A program made the translations under genes and the position numbers. The notes beneath the pieces are model-generated. The model did no database searches. It saw only the letters and a list, made by a program, of their open reading frames with translations, and was not told where the DNA came from. A stretch of 64,000 nt of DNA from Planctomycetota bacterium (lineage in GTDB: Bacteria > Planctomycetota > Phycisphaerae > Phycisphaerales > UBA1924): positions 1 to 64,000 of the forward strand of contig JAJRPN010000012.1 in the NCBI GenBank assembly GCA_024280755.1, read 5' to 3'. Position 1 is the stretch's first letter; the number at the start of each line of letters is the position of its first letter. This document shows, one piece after another, positions 49,844 through 59,903 of the stretch.

Positions 49844-52591
49844 ATGAGTACATGTCCAGATGTAGTGAAACGGCTCGTTGAACGGTTTGATCAACAGTCA
49901 GACCAGATCCGTTCTCCCGAATACAACGAAACCCTCGTTCGCATTGATTTCATCAATCCGCTGATGCGCGAGCTCGGCTGGGATATCGACAACAGTGCCG
50001 GGCACGCCGAGCAATACCGCGAAGTGGTCCATGAGGATCATGTGAAAGTGGCTGGGCAAACCAAAGCCCCGGACTACTCCTTCCGTGTAGGCGGGCAGCG
50101 TAAGTTCTTCCTCGAAGCCAAAAAACCGGCGGTCAACATCAAGAAGAACTGGGAACCGGCCTACCAACTCCGCCGCTATGGATGGAGTGCCAAACTCGCT
50201 TGTTCGTTGCTGACCGACTTCGAAGAGTTTGCGATCTACGACTGCCGGAAGAAACCAAAGCAGTTTGATAAGCCCTCTGTTGCAAGGCGCGATTACTTCC
50301 GATATACCGAGTACGAAGACCGGTGGGACTTCCTCTCGGGTACATTCTCCAAAGAAGCCGTCCTCAAAGGCGAGTTCGATAGATACATCGAATCCAAAAA
50401 AGGTCGTGGCGGCGAAGAGTTCGACGACGAGTTCCTCGCAGAAATAGAAGAATGGCGAAAGAGCATCGCCAGCAACCTCGCACTCCGAAACGATTCGCTC
50501 GACGAAAAATCGCTCAACTTCGCAGTCCAACGCATTATTGACCGCATCATTTTTCTGCGTATCGCTGAAGACCGAGGCACAGAACCGATTGGACAACTCC
50601 AATCCCTGCTCAATGGCGACAAGACTTACGATCGGCTCAAGGTGTTTTTTCGAGCCGCAGACGCACGATACAACTCAGGGCTATTTCACTTCGACCAAGA
50701 AAAAGGGCGTGACGAAGCACCAGACACACTCACCCCGTCGCTCGTCGTCACAGACAAAACCATCAAGGGGATCGTCAAAGCGCTCTACTATCCCGAGAGC
50801 CCCTACGAGTTCACGATGGTCTCCGCCGACATTCTCGGCAGCGTCTACGAACGATTCCTCGGCAAGGTCATCACCCTCACCAAGGGCCACCGTGCCAAGA
50901 TCGAAGAAAAACCAGAAGTACGCAAGGCCGGCGGCGTCTACTACACACCCACCTACATCGTTGACTACATCGTCAAAAACACCATTGGTAAACTCCTCGA
51001 AAACAAAACGCCAAAGCAAGCAGCAAAGATCAAAGTCCTCGATCCTGCCTGCGGGTCGGGTTCGTTCCTCATCGGGGCCTACCAGTTCCTGCTCGATTGG
51101 TACTTCGATCAATACTTCGCCGATGACCCTCAAGCACACTGTAAAGGGAAAAAACCAACCCTCCGACCAACACCCACCGGCGGATGGGCGCTCACCATCG
51201 CCGAACGAAAACGAATCCTCCTCGCCCATATCCACGGCGTAGACCTCGACGGACAAGCCGTCGAAGTGACCAAGCTCAACCTCCTGCTTAAATGCCTCGA
51301 AGGCGAAACCGCTCACACTCTCGGGTTCGAGCAAAAACTCTTCCGCGACCGCGCCCTGCCCGACCTGGGCGCAAACATCAAATGCGGCAACTCCCTCATC
51401 GGAACCGACATCATCGGGACAGACGCATGGAACGAGATGAGCGAAGAAGAGCAACGCCGAATCAATCCGTTCGATTATGAACGGGCGTTTGAGAAAGTGT
51501 TCAAGGGGAAGAATCCCGGCTTTGATGCGGTGATTGGGAATCCGCCTTGGGGAGCCGCTCTCAATGATACTTCGACATCATATCTACGCGAGCACTACGA
51601 ACGAGTGATCGATCGCATGGTTGATACATACATTTATTTAATTGATCGAGGTCTCCGAATAAAGTGTGAGGATGGTCTGCTCGGCTATATTGTGCCCGCA
51701 ACGGTACTCAATCAGGTTGATGCCACAAAGGTTCGCCGTTTGATGCTTGGACAGCGGCCGCGCTCAATAGTTTATCTTGGCAAAGATATTTTCACTCGGA
51801 AAGTTCTTAATACATCTGCCATCATTGTGCTCGGCAAGAGACCCAATAGTAGATTGGCCGTTGGTGATTTATCCAAACTCCCACTTGATGAACGGGCCGC
51901 GGCATTAGATAGTCTCGAATTCGTGTCTTTTAGTGAGTGGGCGATGGTCGTAGAGGCAGACCCATCGTTTACCTTTCAACTCGCTGGTCAAGAGAAAACA
52001 GTTATTCTAGCCCGGATGCGAGAGGTTCATTTATCATTCTCATCGTATTTGATCGGGTCGATTCAACGAGGCGTGAGTCCTGATATTGTTGCTGCGCATG
52101 TGATACCGGATACAGAGGTTGGCCCTTTATTGCCCGAGCCAGAGTTGCTTCGACGGGGCATATCGGGCTCTCGTATCGGAAAGTACCAAAGCCCAGTATC
52201 TGATCAATCGATTTTGTACACTACACGAAAAACTCTGATTGATGATTTTCCTCAGGCGCGGGCTTATTTAAAACAATATGAAAATAAAAACACATGCCGT
52301 GAAGTCCAAGATGGGAAGCATCCTGCTTGGGCTCTTCACCGGCCTCGTAAATCTGAAATTTTTGATTCACCAAAGTTCATTGGGCTTACGACTTCTAAGA
52401 CGATCGAGGTTGTGTACGATGCCGATAAATCACTTTGCGTGACTGATGCGATGTATGTTTTTAAAACATCGTCGGATATTGATCATCGGATGGTTCTTGC
52501 GATTGTGTCTTCTAAAATTTTCTTGTTCCTATATCGAATATCGAATATCGAATATCGAATATGGGAGAGGCAAGAGTTATCCCACAAGTAA
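49844..52591 (+). CDS. Type IIG-like restriction-modification enzyme, 3' end out of frame at a tandem repeat
   Basis: 915 residues as read. The N-terminal nuclease has Asp77, Glu91 and Lys93 in APDYSF...FFLEAKKP (PD-(D/E)xK). After a helical connector comes the N6-adenine methylase: YYTPTYIVDYIV, DPACGSGSF (motif I, Asp400) and GNPPWG (motif IV, about 565-570). A specificity domain follows (about 640-900). Family members (Eco57I/LlaGI-like single-chain enzymes) normally continue with GE..RVIPQVKAAKLKxLPFP and a coiled-coil end. Here that end is in another frame (52561-52845), because four copies of ATATCGA (52531-52558) shift the frame; the reading ends SHK. The native start has no separate promoter space. 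Confidence 0.88.
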   Translation: MSTCPDVVKRLVERFDQQSDQIRSPEYNETLVRIDFINPLMRELGWDIDNSAGHAEQYREVVHEDHVKVAGQTKAPDYSFRVGGQRKFFLEAKKPAVNIKKNWEPAYQLRRYGWSAKLACSLLTDFEEFAIYDCRKKPKQFDKPSVARRDYFRYTEYEDRWDFLSGTFSKEAVLKGEFDRYIESKKGRGGEEFDDEFLAEIEEWRKSIASNLALRNDSLDEKSLNFAVQRIIDRIIFLRIAEDRGTEPIGQLQSLLNGDKTYDRLKVFFRAADARYNSGLFHFDQEKGRDEAPDTLTPSLVVTDKTIKGIVKALYYPESPYEFTMVSADILGSVYERFLGKVITLTKGHRAKIEEKPEVRKAGGVYYTPTYIVDYIVKNTIGKLLENKTPKQAAKIKVLDPACGSGSFLIGAYQFLLDWYFDQYFADDPQAHCKGKKPTLRPTPTGGWALTIAERKRILLAHIHGVDLDGQAVEVTKLNLLLKCLEGETAHTLGFEQKLFRDRALPDLGANIKCGNSLIGTDIIGTDAWNEMSEEEQRRINPFDYERAFEKVFKGKNPGFDAVIGNPPWGAALNDTSTSYLREHYERVIDRMVDTYIYLIDRGLRIKCEDGLLGYIVPATVLNQVDATKVRRLMLGQRPRSIVYLGKDIFTRKVLNTSAIIVLGKRPNSRLAVGDLSKLPLDERAAALDSLEFVSFSEWAMVVEADPSFTFQLAGQEKTVILARMREVHLSFSSYLIGSIQRGVSPDIVAAHVIPDTEVGPLLPEPELLRRGISGSRIGKYQSPVSDQSILYTTRKTLIDDFPQARAYLKQYENKNTCREVQDGKHPAWALHRPRKSEIFDSPKFIGLTTSKTIEVVYDADKSLCVTDAMYVFKTSSDIDHRMVLAIVSSKIFLFLYRISNIEYRIWERQELSHK
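52531..52562 (+). repeat. Heptanucleotide tandem repeat inside the restriction-modification gene
   Basis: Four exact copies of ATATCGA (52531-52537, 52538-52544, 52545-52551, 52552-52558) and a partial ATAT. The unit is not a multiple of three. Frame arithmetic: five copies or two copies put the downstream part in frame with the enzyme; four (present state) and three do not. Confidence 0.95.
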
Positions 52592-55135: not shown

Positions 55136-56671
55136 TTATGATCCCTTGATGTATGAGCTGCTTGTTGTGGTGAAGCCTTTGTCGTGGTTTTGAATCATGT
55201 ACCGCAGCGCATCGACACAATGATCCGAGCCATCCTTTTCAGGCAATGAACACATCGGCTGATCCGCTGGGTAGTGATATTTTTCGAGCGACTCAATCAG
55301 CTTTTCGCATGAGCGATGGATGTAGAGACGAATAGGCCCTGATGCGGGCTTGAGCCTTGTGCGGACGAGTCCAAGCCCTTCATGCAGCCCGAGCCTGCGA
55401 TCGTGAATGGTCAAGCCGGCGCGGCGCATCGCTTGAACATCAGAAATCCCGGTCTGGAACCCACGCTGGCGCCCAGCGGGATCAACCCCGAGCCATTTGG
55501 GTGGGTATCGATAGTCTTGGATGGCTTTGATGTGTTCATCAAGGGCTGCGTCGGTCTTGAGGTATTCGCTCGCGACCCAGATGCAATCGTTTGCATCGAT
55601 GCACGCAAACAATACAACAGTGGGGGATCGGATTCCAAAGTCCATTCCACCGATCCATGTCCAGGTGTGAGCAGACTCTGGCAGCCCATCGACGACATGA
55701 ATCCCGGGGTTAAACTCGGGGAGCACGCAGTCCGTTCGCTTTGGGCGCAGGCACAACATCTCGGCGTTCCATGTTTCATCTCCAACGCGTTTTTTAAGCG
55801 CGATCGCATCATCAATCGTGATGTGCCCGGGTACCTGGTTGTTGCGATCGCGTCCCTTTGCTTTGCCGGCGCACTCGCCAGCAAGCGGGCAAGGTTGGCC
55901 ATCCGTTGATTCATCGCCCAAGCATTGATGCTCGTCATCATCGCAAACATCGAGCACATCGACCACGCCCCATCGGAAAATTCGGCGCGATGTTTCGTTA
56001 TCCTCAAGACTCTGCGAGACCAGATCGTGCATGAGCCCGTAGGGGACATGCAGGGTCGACAAGCATTCAATCGATCCTTTCACCCTTGTTCCACAGCGTT
56101 TTTCCCGTGTGACCAACTGGGCAGCCTCCCACACATCACGATCGAAAAGCTCGACCTCGTCGCACCGGAGTTTCTGCACGCGGGTGCCTCGGACAGAGGT
56201 CTGGGATTGGGCAAGCAGTTCCACGGTTGAGCTGTTGGTGAGCCGAATCCGGCGGTCGGTGATCTTGCCTTCGATTAACTCATCGAACCGATCAATGGAG
56301 AACAGGTCGCGCAGATGCGCGTGCATGCGTTTGGATTGTTCGAGCGAACCACCCAGGATGCGAATCTCAATTCCGGGTTTAAAGAGCAGGTCGAGCATGG
56401 TGGCGACCGCAGCGTAGAAGGTTTTTCCGCCGCCACGGTTTGCCCAGACCACGCAATCGCGAGGCATCCGATCCTCAAAGAACGCATGGCATAAATACTC
56501 GAACGGTGCACTGTGCCCATCGATCAATGCCTGGCGAACCACACGAATCGAGAGTTTGTAGAGTATCCACGCGTGGAGTTCGTCGTCGGTGGTGGGGCAC
56601 TTGCCTGTGATTGTTTGCAGTTCAAGCTCGTGATCGCTTTGCTCGTTGAGCGTGTCGGAAAAATCGTCCAT
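55136..56671 (-). CDS. Phage terminase large subunit-like protein
   Basis: 511 residues. The ATPase domain has Walker A ANRGGGKT (77-84) and LRCDEVELF as Walker B with the catalytic Glu; the nuclease domain has WIGGMDFGIRSPTVVLF, WLGVDPAGRQR and DGSDHCVDALRYMI, in the order of RNase-H-fold TerL nucleases. In phages this protein cuts and packages DNA. Between them a Cys-rich insert (CDDDEHQCLGDE...CPLAGEC) could bind zinc. No small terminase, portal or capsid gene is adjacent: the next genes to the left are bacterial membrane proteins on the other strand. Confidence 0.82.
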   Translation of the reverse strand: MDDFSDTLNEQSDHELELQTITGKCPTTDDELHAWILYKLSIRVVRQALIDGHSAPFEYLCHAFFEDRMPRDCVVWANRGGGKTFYAAVATMLDLLFKPGIEIRILGGSLEQSKRMHAHLRDLFSIDRFDELIEGKITDRRIRLTNSSTVELLAQSQTSVRGTRVQKLRCDEVELFDRDVWEAAQLVTREKRCGTRVKGSIECLSTLHVPYGLMHDLVSQSLEDNETSRRIFRWGVVDVLDVCDDDEHQCLGDESTDGQPCPLAGECAGKAKGRDRNNQVPGHITIDDAIALKKRVGDETWNAEMLCLRPKRTDCVLPEFNPGIHVVDGLPESAHTWTWIGGMDFGIRSPTVVLFACIDANDCIWVASEYLKTDAALDEHIKAIQDYRYPPKWLGVDPAGRQRGFQTGISDVQAMRRAGLTIHDRRLGLHEGLGLVRTRLKPASGPIRLYIHRSCEKLIESLEKYHYPADQPMCSLPEKDGSDHCVDALRYMIQNHDKGFTTTSSSYIKGS

Positions 56672-56701
56672 GTTCCATAATCCTCTTATAAATAAGTTTG
56701 T

Positions 56702-56929
56702 TTACTCTGTATCAATCAATCCCAGCGCGATCAAAATGGCTTGGGTTCGATCGTTTGAAAACCCGGCCAGCGCATCGAGCACCGCTCTTCGTTTCCTTGT
56801 TGGCAAGAAGAAGGTCAATGCGCTGGGCAGCTTCTCTGTCGTGTGTTCTGGTATGGGTTGATTAATCGCTATCGCGTGCTGATCTGTTTGCATCTCTTTC
56901 ATCTCCGTCATCTCCATTTGAATAGACAT
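56702..56929 (-). CDS. Small protein between the ABC-GNAT and terminase genes
   Basis: 75 residues at most; several ATGs near the start (56929, 56917, 56902, 56893) and GGAG-type sites within that part. The C-terminal half, LPSALTFFLPTRKRRAVLDA followed by LAGFSNDRTQAILIALGL, looks like a compact helical domain. It overlaps the end of the ABC-GNAT gene by up to 68 bp and lies 30 bp before the terminase. By position it could be a small terminase or adaptor, but nothing in the sequence proves this. Confidence 0.45.
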   Translation of the reverse strand: MSIQMEMTEMKEMQTDQHAIAINQPIPEHTTEKLPSALTFFLPTRKRRAVLDALAGFSNDRTQAILIALGLIDTE

Positions 56930-58280
56930 GGGCGTATGCGCGGGGATTGGCGAGCAGCCGACAGGCTACGATGGGGGCAAGGCTTTGAACTGTTTGTGAG
57001 TCGGGTGTTCCAGACCCGATGACTTTGCGCGTCTTGCTCCAGGTGATCAGCTCTCGTTCGAGCAGTGATCCGGGTTTGATAGGCGTGTTGATCAGGTCGG
57101 CGAGTGTGCGTTGTTGATGGTTGATCGCGTCGATCAGCCGAAGGTCGACAGGGGCGGGGAGCAACTCGTAAGGCGTCATCCCGGCGCGTTCAAAGAACGG
57201 GCAGACGGAACCCATCGCTGCGATGGATTCCGTCGCGGGTGTTTGTGGATTGTTTAGATAATGACGAACCAACGCGCTCGCCATCCCAAGTCCGCGCGAG
57301 CGAGGATCGACGATTACCCTAGAAATACAGCGTAGATTTGTGTTAATCTGTTTCGCATTGGATGCCTTGTTGCCCGCCGAGAAGAACCTTGGCCAAGCAC
57401 GCTCGCGCCATGAGCCGTTGAGTGTGGGCATGGAGATGACCAATACCCCCGCGAGAATCTCGCCAAGGATCGGTACTGTCCGTGTGGCTTTGAGGACAAG
57501 CGTGTGCGTCGCGGGTTTGGACCCACGATAGTGCAAGTGGGCGAGCAATTGGTAATCGGCGATGGTGCCTTGCTCAATGGTGATCGATTGATTGGCTGAG
57601 TCACAAGTTGTATTCATGGTTCGTGTGTTCATGTTGATCACAAGATCGGGCGCAAGCATGCCCGCCATATCTTCGTGCGCAGTCGCAGCGATGAGTATGA
57701 TTCCTGTTCGACTTGTCCATCGGCTCATTGTATGGGCAAGGGCATACGCACTCGCACGATCCAAAGGCGTCGCGAACTCATCAGCGATCACCACATCGCC
57801 CCGCTGGGCATTGTGCATCGCGAGTGCAAGGTGTAATCGGGCGCGTTCACCGACTGATAAGCACGGTGTTGGCATCGCCCAGAGTTTCGGTTCTGCAAGT
57901 CCAGCATGTGAAAGCGTCTCGACTCGGCGTTCGAGTGGGCCAGAGAATAGATCGAGCATGGCAGCGGTTTGGCTGATTTGTGTCGTGGAGTCATGGGCTA
58001 TATGAACTCTCGACGAGCGGGAAATGGCTTGTTGAATCCCGCGAAGCAGGCACGATTTTCCTGCGCCCGATGCGCCGGTGATCAACACGGTTGATGATGC
58101 ACCGATCTGGCCGAGCATGGTTGGTGTTGGGTGTTCGATTTTTCGATCAGTGTGCTTTGTGTGATGCGCGATCAATCCAAAGCTCGCGCAGGCTTGCAGG
58201 GCGCACGCAGAGATATCGCTTGGCGTGTCGATCGCGATTGGTTCAACGAGTTTGGTGGGTTGTTTCCAGACCATGTGCAA
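56862..58280 (-). CDS. ABC-type ATPase fused to a GNAT acyltransferase domain
   Basis: 472 residues. Residues 55-215 form an ABC ATPase: Walker A ITGASGAGKS (67-76), signature LSVGERARLHLALAM (141-155), Walker B DVVIADEFATPLD, switch His202 (ATAHED). Residues about 235-400 form a GNAT domain with HLHYRGSKPATHTLVLKA and the acyl-CoA loop RVIVDPRSRGLGMASALVRHYL. No transmembrane part exists, so it is not a transporter. Similar fusions are seen near phage terminases (from memory), function unknown. It starts 13 bp after the stop of the HTH gene. Confidence 0.8.
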   Translation of the reverse strand: MHMVWKQPTKLVEPIAIDTPSDISACALQACASFGLIAHHTKHTDRKIEHPTPTMLGQIGASSTVLITGASGAGKSCLLRGIQQAISRSSRVHIAHDSTTQISQTAAMLDLFSGPLERRVETLSHAGLAEPKLWAMPTPCLSVGERARLHLALAMHNAQRGDVVIADEFATPLDRASAYALAHTMSRWTSRTGIILIAATAHEDMAGMLAPDLVINMNTRTMNTTCDSANQSITIEQGTIADYQLLAHLHYRGSKPATHTLVLKATRTVPILGEILAGVLVISMPTLNGSWRERAWPRFFSAGNKASNAKQINTNLRCISRVIVDPRSRGLGMASALVRHYLNNPQTPATESIAAMGSVCPFFERAGMTPYELLPAPVDLRLIDAINHQQRTLADLINTPIKPGSLLERELITWSKTRKVIGSGTPDSQTVQSLAPIVACRLLANPRAYAHVYSNGDDGDERDANRSARDSD

Positions 58281-58293
58281 AGACCAATCGTGC

Positions 58294-58767
58294 TTAGCGC
58301 CACGCGCGGAGTTTGGAGGAGCGAGTGTTCGCTTGAGCGTTTGCTTGGGACATCGCGTTGATGGCTTCGCGGTGTTTGCGGACGGAGTAAAAGCTCACGC
58401 CAAGATTTTCGGTCACCTCGCGGATGGAGTGCCCTTGGATAAAGAGTGATTGAGCGATCGCCCGTTTGGATCGGCTCCAAGCTTCGCAGTGTTCAACAAC
58501 ATACGCGACGCGCGGATCGTTGAGCCGATGCACGAGGCGCTTGATGCGTCGGCGGACATGCCTTGGGTCTTGTCCGATGAGCTTGGCGATCTGGCTGGCA
58601 GATTGCCCGTCGCGGAACATAGCGATGATGAGGCTTTGATCATCTTTTTCGAGCCAGTGGGCACGGTGGACGAGCTGATCGGTGAGCGTGTTGGTGTGTC
58701 TTTTTCGCAGGTCGATGTCGTCTGTAACCTTGTCGAGCCAGTCCGCGGTGATTGGTGAATGTCCCAT
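58294..58767 (-). CDS. Helix-turn-helix protein with two HTH motifs
   Basis: 157 residues. Two sigma-region-4/Hin-like HTH motifs are visible: SLIIAMFRDGQSASQIAKLI (then GQDPRHVRRRIKRLV) and AIAQSLFIQGHSIREVTENL (then GVSFYSVRKHREAI). Such arrangements are found in recombinase- or terminase-small-subunit-like DNA-binding proteins. It is the first gene of the leftward cassette and is divergent from the S24 repressor, so it is probably controlled by it. Start ATG at 58767. Confidence 0.7.
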   Translation of the reverse strand: MGHSPITADWLDKVTDDIDLRKRHTNTLTDQLVHRAHWLEKDDQSLIIAMFRDGQSASQIAKLIGQDPRHVRRRIKRLVHRLNDPRVAYVVEHCEAWSRSKRAIAQSLFIQGHSIREVTENLGVSFYSVRKHREAINAMSQANAQANTRSSKLRAWR

Positions 58768-58785
58768 TTTTCTCTCCTTGCCTCA

Positions 58786-58910
58786 GATTTGTTGGTATTT
58801 CACTTGACATACCACATATGTGCGTTCACAATAGAGTGAACTATTATTTTCAGAGTATACACCAAACCAAGAACGCTTTGCAAGGGTACTGTATGGTATA
58901 TCAACAAATC
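58786..58910. promoter_or_regulatory. Divergent control region with promoter and operator-like repeats
   Basis: TTGACA (58804-58809), 17 bp, then CACAAT (58827-58832) forms a good promoter reading right, toward the repressor. TGGTAT-N10-ATACCA (58793-58814) is a perfect inverted repeat overlapping the -35. The nine bases GATTTGTTG at 58786-58794 recur inverted at 58902-58910, each next to a GGTAT-like half site. The layout suits two repressor sites flanking an autoregulated promoter. Confidence 0.6.
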
Positions 58911-58994
58911 AGCGCACAGACCCGGTCACTGCATACCGACCAAAATCCGATATCCACAATTTCTGCTCCACGACTCAAAAACAACACGACCATT

Positions 58995-59903
58995 ATGGCT
59001 GCTCAACCCCTTCATCTTGATGCTTCTACCCAACGCACCTTTGCCTCAACACTGCGGCAGCGCCGAACACAAAAGGGTTTATCGCTCGCAAAGCTTGCAG
59101 AACGGGTCGGATGTGCCAAGTCATATCTATCCTCGATCGAGAACGAGCACAAAGGTCCGCCGGCCGAATCAATCATCGAAAGGCTTGAACTTGTCCTCTG
59201 TTTCCAGCCAGGAGAACTCTTTGAGCGGGCTCAGTGGGATCAGACCCCGATGCCGATCCGGGAGAATCTTGAACAGCTTCGTGAGCGTGATGAATCGGTT
59301 TCCTCGTTGGCTCGGCTGTTGGCACAGAGCGCACGCGAAGGTGCGTCGCTCGACAAGCTGTATGAATCTGGCGAGCTTCGTCAACTGATCGATCGGATTG
59401 ATCCCGACCAAGCGGATCATGTATCCGAGCCTGCAAACGATGCGGAAGAAACCCTTGAGAGTCCTGCGAATCCGATGGCTGCGATCGGGATGCTTCCGAT
59501 GGAGGTGCCTTTGATCAATAAGGTGACCGCTGGATACCCGGCCGACTTTACAGACATGGGATATCCTGCGAGGATCGCAGACGAGTATGTCCGAGCGCCG
59601 GACCTGAGTGATCCAGATGCGTTCGCTGCGCGGGTGGTGGGGGATTCGATGGAGCCCAACTATCGCGAGGGCGATATCGTGGTGTTCTCGCCCGCGCGCG
59701 AGATCGTCGATGGGATGGATTGCTTTGTGCGTCTTGAGCGCGACGACGAGAGCACTTTTAAGCGGATCTATTTCCAGAAGGATGATTCGGGCAACGAGTT
59801 GATTCGGATTCAGCCGATCAACAATAGTTATCCGCCGATGACTGTTCCAAGAGAAGCGGTCGCGGGGTTATATGCGGGGGTCTCGGTGACGCGGACAATT
59901 TAA
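58995..59903 (+). CDS. HTH/S24 peptidase phage-type repressor (LexA/CI-like)
   Basis: 302 residues. An XRE-type HTH (LRQRRTQKGLSLAKLAERVG, CAKSYLSSIENEHKG) is followed by a helical linker and an S24 domain with the cleavage-site candidate Ala179-Gly180 (KVTAGYP), Ser218 (VVGDSMEPNY) and Lys256 (STFKRIYF). Such repressors self-cleave when RecA filaments form. ATG at 58995 starts close to the HTH; ATG at 58893 with AAGGG upstream would add 34 poorly conserved residues. It is divergent from the HTH-ABC/GNAT-terminase genes. Confidence 0.85.
   Translation: MAAQPLHLDASTQRTFASTLRQRRTQKGLSLAKLAERVGCAKSYLSSIENEHKGPPAESIIERLELVLCFQPGELFERAQWDQTPMPIRENLEQLRERDESVSSLARLLAQSAREGASLDKLYESGELRQLIDRIDPDQADHVSEPANDAEETLESPANPMAAIGMLPMEVPLINKVTAGYPADFTDMGYPARIADEYVRAPDLSDPDAFAARVVGDSMEPNYREGDIVVFSPAREIVDGMDCFVRLERDDESTFKRIYFQKDDSGNELIRIQPINNSYPPMTVPREAVAGLYAGVSVTRTI

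Follow-up and report, generated by a model that had tools for sequence, protein, structure and literature searches.

Gene transfer agents (GTAs) with a known genetic basis fall into three independent groups, namely RcGTA/Rhodogtaviriformidae, BaGTA/Bartogtaviriformidae and BhGTA/Brachygtaviriformidae (Kogay et al. 2022, PMC9662315). Moreover, the pairing of an ABC-ATPase with a GNAT acyltransferase has been predicted to constitute a DNA-base acyl modification system in phages and bacteria (Iyer et al. 2013, cited in PMC7824862). In this study, a gene cassette was analyzed at positions 55136-59903 of a 64,000-nucleotide stretch of DNA from a Planctomycetota bacterium of the class Phycisphaerae (the window; positions 1 to 64,000 of contig JAJRPN010000012.1). 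The cassette consists of an S24 repressor gene on the plus strand and a divergent minus-strand operon encoding a helix-turn-helix (HTH) protein, an ABC-ATPase-GNAT fusion, a small protein and a terminase large subunit (TerL). With a probability of roughly three in four, this cassette is the locus for packaging and regulation in an ancient and dispersed GTA-like viriform that the class Phycisphaerae inherits vertically and the head genes of which would lie at a second locus. The gene set, the co-occurrence with portal and major capsid protein (MCP) genes, the vertical inheritance, the purifying selection, an operator and the self-cleavage residues of the S24 repressor could each be demonstrated in the sequences compared, and from these we infer that particles are formed and that DNA is transferred. 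No report of a GTA in Phycisphaerae was found in the open-access literature.

Of the 163 genomes in the GTDB family of the bacterium, 150 had a TerL match (107/112 among the good genomes), essentially in a single copy adjoining the ABC-GNAT gene. Most of the compared genomes were metagenome-assembled genomes, and the close relatives that carry names were nearly all Phycisphaerales assemblies of this kind from the Planctomycetota. The order S24(+), HTH-ABC-GNAT-TerL(-) was kept across 40 loci from many genera while the flanks varied. Full-length TerL extended to further families of the order and to further orders of the class, and beyond Phycisphaerae the matches were weak and mainly confined to the nuclease domain. 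In a comparison with 2.9 million viral contigs, the full-length TerL nearest to it shared 25% identity, and the best partial segments reached 33%. In sister families, the ABC and GNAT domains are encoded by separate genes, and GNAT is separated from TerL by two more genes, one ParB-like and one of about 160 aa. The latter, just upstream of TerL (L281:10418-10912, L287:8583-9065), has the look of a small terminase, with an HTH followed by a helical region, and no Pfam or PHROG model matched it. In family f9 (G404, G419 and G468; L294, L295 and L296), TerL was found without S24, HTH, ABC or GNAT genes inside the 17-19 kb fetched, so that in this family the cassette is either broken up or reduced.

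Both TerL and MCP followed the descent of their hosts, for which rpoB was used as the marker in distance and tree comparisons. The distances correlated with those of rpoB (Mantel r 0.85 for TerL and 0.78 for MCP, p 1e-4), and 14 of 19 tree splits for TerL and 13 of 16 for MCP were common with rpoB, against at most 3 at random. Furthermore, the dN/dS of every gene tested lay between 0.04 and 0.41, indicating purifying selection. Losses were seen in family f2.

No virion gene was noticed near the cassette, which is located on contig C17 of its genome. The initial annotation had concluded that portal and capsid genes were absent; this holds for the neighborhood of the cassette and fails for the genome, where both were found at another locus on contig C3. 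The MCP family, phrog_1328, was traced through L171, the phage contig that carries the closest TerL. Of 17 Phycisphaerae genomes, 16 had one full-length match (phrog_1328/PF17236, E 1e-77 to 1e-86), the genome under study among them, and the 14 control genomes had none; identity to the copy of this genome was 52-83% across the class. The capsid locus, a conserved run of genes between ordinary host genes such as phosphoglucomutase, encodes a portal (PF05133, E 1e-16, SPP1-type), a scaffold-like coiled-coil protein, the MCP (PF17236, E 3e-86, SU10-type), a connector-like protein, two small proteins of structural type, a holin-like protein and a lipoprotein. The MCP profile matched a solved SU10-like major head protein, and the names holin, connector and scaffold are readings of position and sequence. 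Profile searches against solved structures returned nothing usable for three small structural proteins, and the portal family of L171, phrog_145, matched neither the 17 genomes searched nor the controls and was thus uninformative. An HK97 portal (PF04860) and capsid (PF05065) were also considered as the missing head genes and were rejected, since they exceeded the cut-off in G182 only and at a different place; this negative result would have misled because the real MCP is of the SU10 type. G182 (L287, L300, L303) keeps the whole cassette and the holin and lipoprotein genes, and the MCP profile had no match there. Its HK97-type pair lies 1.6 Mb away and probably belongs to a separate prophage.

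The two loci tended to occur together. Among 151 genomes of the order, both TerL and MCP were present in all 46 members of the family concerned, and the other 105 genomes comprised 34 with both, 7 with TerL only, 3 with MCP only and 61 with neither (Fisher p 3e-17). TerL was kept without a detected MCP in G182, G183 and G206. Where the two genes share a contig, the median distance was 28 kb (range in the compared genomes 9-129 kb), and in five single-contig genomes (3.5-4.3 Mb) they lie 33-129 kb apart. Moreover, in G218 and G170, which represent two sister families, both halves form one unit of 24-25 kb around the S24 gene, in the order TerL-X-ParB-GNAT-ABC-HTH, then S24, then late genes for a lipoprotein, holin-like protein, hub-like protein, tail region, connector, MCP, scaffold and portal. 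The initial annotation had raised full prophages at the same site in relatives as counter-evidence, and the comparison gave another picture: the relatives carry a contiguous packaging and head/tail unit, and no integrase or replication family was recognized in the cassette or among the genes scanned in the G218 unit, where not every open reading frame was scanned. A LamG-domain, tail-fiber-like protein is encoded in the sister families, and 26 genomes from other families have the hub-like protein.

All genes of the cassette were confirmed at 55136-59903 with intact motifs by the open reading frame list and family searches, so that the divergent unit and the intact catalytic motifs proposed for it at the outset were both upheld. 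TerL (55136-56671, minus strand) matched phrog_2 (E 3e-18), and its match to Pfam Terminase_6C (E 2e-4) fell just short of the family cut-off. The residues of its ATPase (Walker A R79-T84, Walker B D171-E172, ST205-206) and nuclease (D344/D397/D483/D487) were conserved, the catalytic residues being invariant in alignments of 21-41 homologues, and an insert carries four invariant cysteines (243, 250, 261 and 267). The small protein of 75 aa (56702-56929, minus strand) is encoded by a gene that overlaps the ABC-GNAT gene at the 3' end of the latter. It matched no known family; in near relatives, tblastn detected homologues in the corresponding position with 76% to about 37% identity, and its iterated profile drifted into the ParB-like gene of the sister families. 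The ABC-GNAT fusion (56862-58280, minus strand) matched ABC_tran (E 1e-6), phrog_11143 (E 3e-18) and phrog_886 (E 2e-11). Its GNAT half gave a weak Pfam match together with the phrog_886 match, is a conserved domain and corresponds to a stand-alone gene in relatives. The structure model of the fusion (pLDDT 87) gave an ABC fold match with Z 16.7, and a GNAT protein of Leptospira phage LE4 was a full-length viral fold match (E 5e-18); the Foldseek and VIA-align lists were dominated by the ABC domain, so that the GNAT part was barely probed. In line with what Aravind and colleagues predict for ABC+GNAT pairs (PMC7824862), the fusion is a predicted DNA-base acylation enzyme. The first gene of the packaging operon (58294-58767, minus strand) encodes the tandem HTH protein (HTH_23, E 2e-9) and was present in 39 of 40 family loci. 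Its AlphaFold2 model (pLDDT 87) comprised two three-helix HTH domains with weak fold matches to sigma region 4, and we infer a late-gene activator or a small terminase. The S24 repressor, of LexA/CI type with an N-terminal HTH, matched Peptidase_S24 (E 6e-17) and phrog_4 (E 4e-27) on the plus strand. The listed frame spans 58752-59903, and the real start is probably a conserved ATG at 58995, giving 58995-59903. It possesses the Ala-Gly cleavage site and the catalytic Ser and Lys of this class; these residues (A179-G180, S218 and K256) were conserved in 34-35 of 36 homologues. Elsewhere in the window, an open reading frame of 915 aa at 49844-52591 is of methyltransferase type and resembles PglX/type II restriction-methylation proteins, well under the curated cut-offs.

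The region between the S24 and HTH genes contains a putative palindromic operator, GTTCACAATAGAGTGAAC, at 58824-58841 (consensus GTTCA-N8-TGAAC), which overlaps the -10 side of a promoter-like site with TTGACA (58804-58809) directed at S24. It was the sole match at no more than 1 mismatch in the window, and at the same stringency it occurred in 24 of 46 homologous intergenic regions versus 0.22 expected from shuffles. DNA damage probably switches the system on through cleavage of S24. In the mechanism that we propose, DNA damage would activate RecA, whereupon S24 would cleave itself and leave the GTTCA-N8-TGAAC operator, and the HTH operon would be expressed. The tandem HTH protein would then activate the late capsid operon or serve as the small terminase. 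The ABC/GNAT pair, together with a ParB-like partner in the sister families, may acyl-modify DNA bases as an optional step before packaging, and TerL would pump headfuls of host chromosomal DNA through the SPP1-type portal into SU10-type capsids. Finally, the holin-like protein and the lipoprotein may aid release, and the particles would carry DNA to kin. Each component of this proposed mechanism has support from sequence.

In five genomes from three families (G160, G116, G037, G232 and G188; L331, L332, L333, L334 and L335), the MCP gene is interrupted at one and the same codon (about 62), where an element of 10.5-11.6 kb (for example, L335:1682-13321) is inserted, the ends of which are inverted (TTCCCGTCTGA...TCAGACGGGGAA). 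The element encodes a large serine recombinase, an AAA_25 ATPase, a phage-capsid-domain protein of 630 aa and usually a sigma-70-like protein, and its variable cargo includes SacI-type restriction-modification. The same module, or parts of it, was found on about ten IMG/VR contigs (L374-L384), in the fetched stretches of which no GTA gene was matched; therefore, the element also exists at other sites. It looks either like a parasite that exploits the particle system and encodes a capsid or like an element subject to programmed excision. A bolder combination, which we regard as rather doubtful, would hold that the Phycisphaerae GTA was independently exapted, is under SOS-type control, chemically modifies the DNA that it packages and, in addition, is parasitized at one MCP codon by capsid-encoding serine-recombinase elements with defence cargo, that is, by a satellite of a GTA and not of a phage.

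Several observations weigh against a GTA-like viriform. The hub-like protein of the sister families had no match in the family under study, where tail genes were not identified, and the small terminase lacks a confident assignment. The operator of S24 was searched for at the portal operon and was not found, so that the link from repressor to late genes is indirect. In the portal gene of the genome under study (contig C3), one TAG (L315:13826-13828) interrupts the reading frame that the two halves of the gene share; it is either a nonsense mutation or a sequencing error. In G074 (L320), the C-terminal third of the portal alone is recognizable, with the MCP and cassette intact and the genome otherwise complete. 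In five lineages the MCP is interrupted by the 11 kb element. No particle, packaged DNA or transfer was observed. Some of these points would suit an ancient defective prophage that is class-wide by chance and now decaying, for which the portal stop, the shortened portal of G074 and the losses in family f2 could be cited. However, all genes tested were under purifying selection, catalytic residues were invariant, and the system is near-universal in the family and co-inherited with no integrase seen, which makes decay highly improbable. The initial annotation had left three options standing, and its prophage remnant does not fit a near-universal TerL that is under purifying selection and co-diversifies with rpoB. 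An intact prophage, which would unite integrase and replication genes with a complete virion set in one element, was considered too, and neither an integrase nor a replication family was recognized among the genes scanned. A second of the three options was a reduced satellite of the PICI or P4 kind hijacking the capsid of a helper phage, and a TerL with few neighbors beside an S24 repressor does resemble phage-inducible islands. Yet the cassette is fixed in the class in single copy, its tree follows that of rpoB, no integrase or att-like mobility was seen, and these genomes carry the corresponding capsid locus on the chromosome; such an origin is scarcely credible. A phage satellite would be recognized by an integrase of its own, a sporadic distribution and the use of a helper capsid, and neither the class-wide presence of the cassette nor the chromosomal capsid locus agrees with this. 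The remaining option, a domesticated gene-transfer or DNA-damage-response unit, pointed in the right direction, so that the earlier interpretation was supported in part.

Two further explanations accept that the locus is functional. The ABC-GNAT fusion and TerL could form a capsid-free system for DNA modification and restriction or repair, given that ABC and GNAT pairs are predicted DNA-base acylation enzymes (Iyer et al. 2013, cited in PMC7824862). TerL is a translocase-nuclease, PADLOC gave weak matches of the ABC domain to mad3/mad8, and G182, G183 and G206 retain TerL with MCP undetected. However, gains and losses of TerL and MCP coincided (p 3e-17), the two genes belong to one contiguous unit in G218 and G170, and a defence system is seldom present in nearly every member of a bacterial family; we consider a capsid-free system very unlikely. 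An anti-phage defence system as such was rejected, as PADLOC yielded only partial matches to the ABC and HTH domains and none to TerL or MCP. Alternatively, the particle may be domesticated for purposes other than gene transfer, such as damage-triggered lysis with release of DNA, killing or protection of DNA in an intracellular capsid, and recipients would gain no DNA. This would be accompanied by the identical set of conserved loci and the same selection, it would agree with the holin-like and lipoprotein genes in the cluster, and receptor-binding tail genes were not recognized in the family under study. On the other hand, the intact motor and nuclease of TerL are retained together with portal and MCP, which makes little sense without DNA-filled heads, and the sister families encode the LamG-domain protein resembling a tail fiber. 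A particle that transfers nothing is, in our judgment, unlikely.

A GTA-like viriform remains the preferred explanation. A class-wide candidate in the Planctomycetota would be one more exaptation and would be of use in testing why GTAs are retained by bacteria. Its make-up, with a self-cleaving repressor, possible acylation of DNA before packaging and two separable loci, is unlike that of described GTAs, and the contiguous ancestor of the two loci is still visible in sister families. For annotators, the case is a warning: an "orphan terminase" may belong to a particle system of which the other half lies elsewhere in the genome.

Pseudomonas phage nickie and Salmonella phage SSU5 resemble the cassette in having ParB-like, ABC (phrog_11143), GNAT (phrog_886) and DNA-binding genes with TerL, and in them portal and MCP adjoin. 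This shared block suggests that the cassette is the counterpart of the modification-plus-packaging block in a tailed phage. Nevertheless, nickie and SSU5 are real phages with full genomes, their ABC and GNAT are separate genes, and their TerL bears no more than a remote similarity to that of the cassette (profile E about 1e-19 to 1e-21). IMG/VR contig 3300045738_000286 (L171) has the closest full-length viral TerL (profile E 1e-51) and an MCP of the same family, whereas its portal belongs to another family. The system of Iyer et al. comprises the same two domains and was predicted from sequence in phages; the Phycisphaerae fusion differs in lying in a chromosomal operon with TerL and a repressor, and the chemistry is predicted in both. 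Three of the six GTA criteria in PMC9662315 apply to the locus, namely caudoviricete-derived proteins (by similarity), endogenization over multiple loci and mostly vertical inheritance. The other three criteria of that paper concern particles filled largely with random host DNA, a head too small to take up the whole of the GTA's own genome, and delivery of the enclosed DNA to recipients; in most of the genomes compared here, the loci are scattered over tens of kb. As in described GTAs, TerL, portal and MCP derive from caudoviricetes and are endogenized and vertically inherited, and the spread over several loci recalls RcGTA. Unlike them, the Phycisphaerae locus belongs to a different bacterial class, combines an SU10-type MCP with an SPP1-type portal, and places a packaging operon with ABC-GNAT (and ParB) under a self-cleaving S24 repressor.

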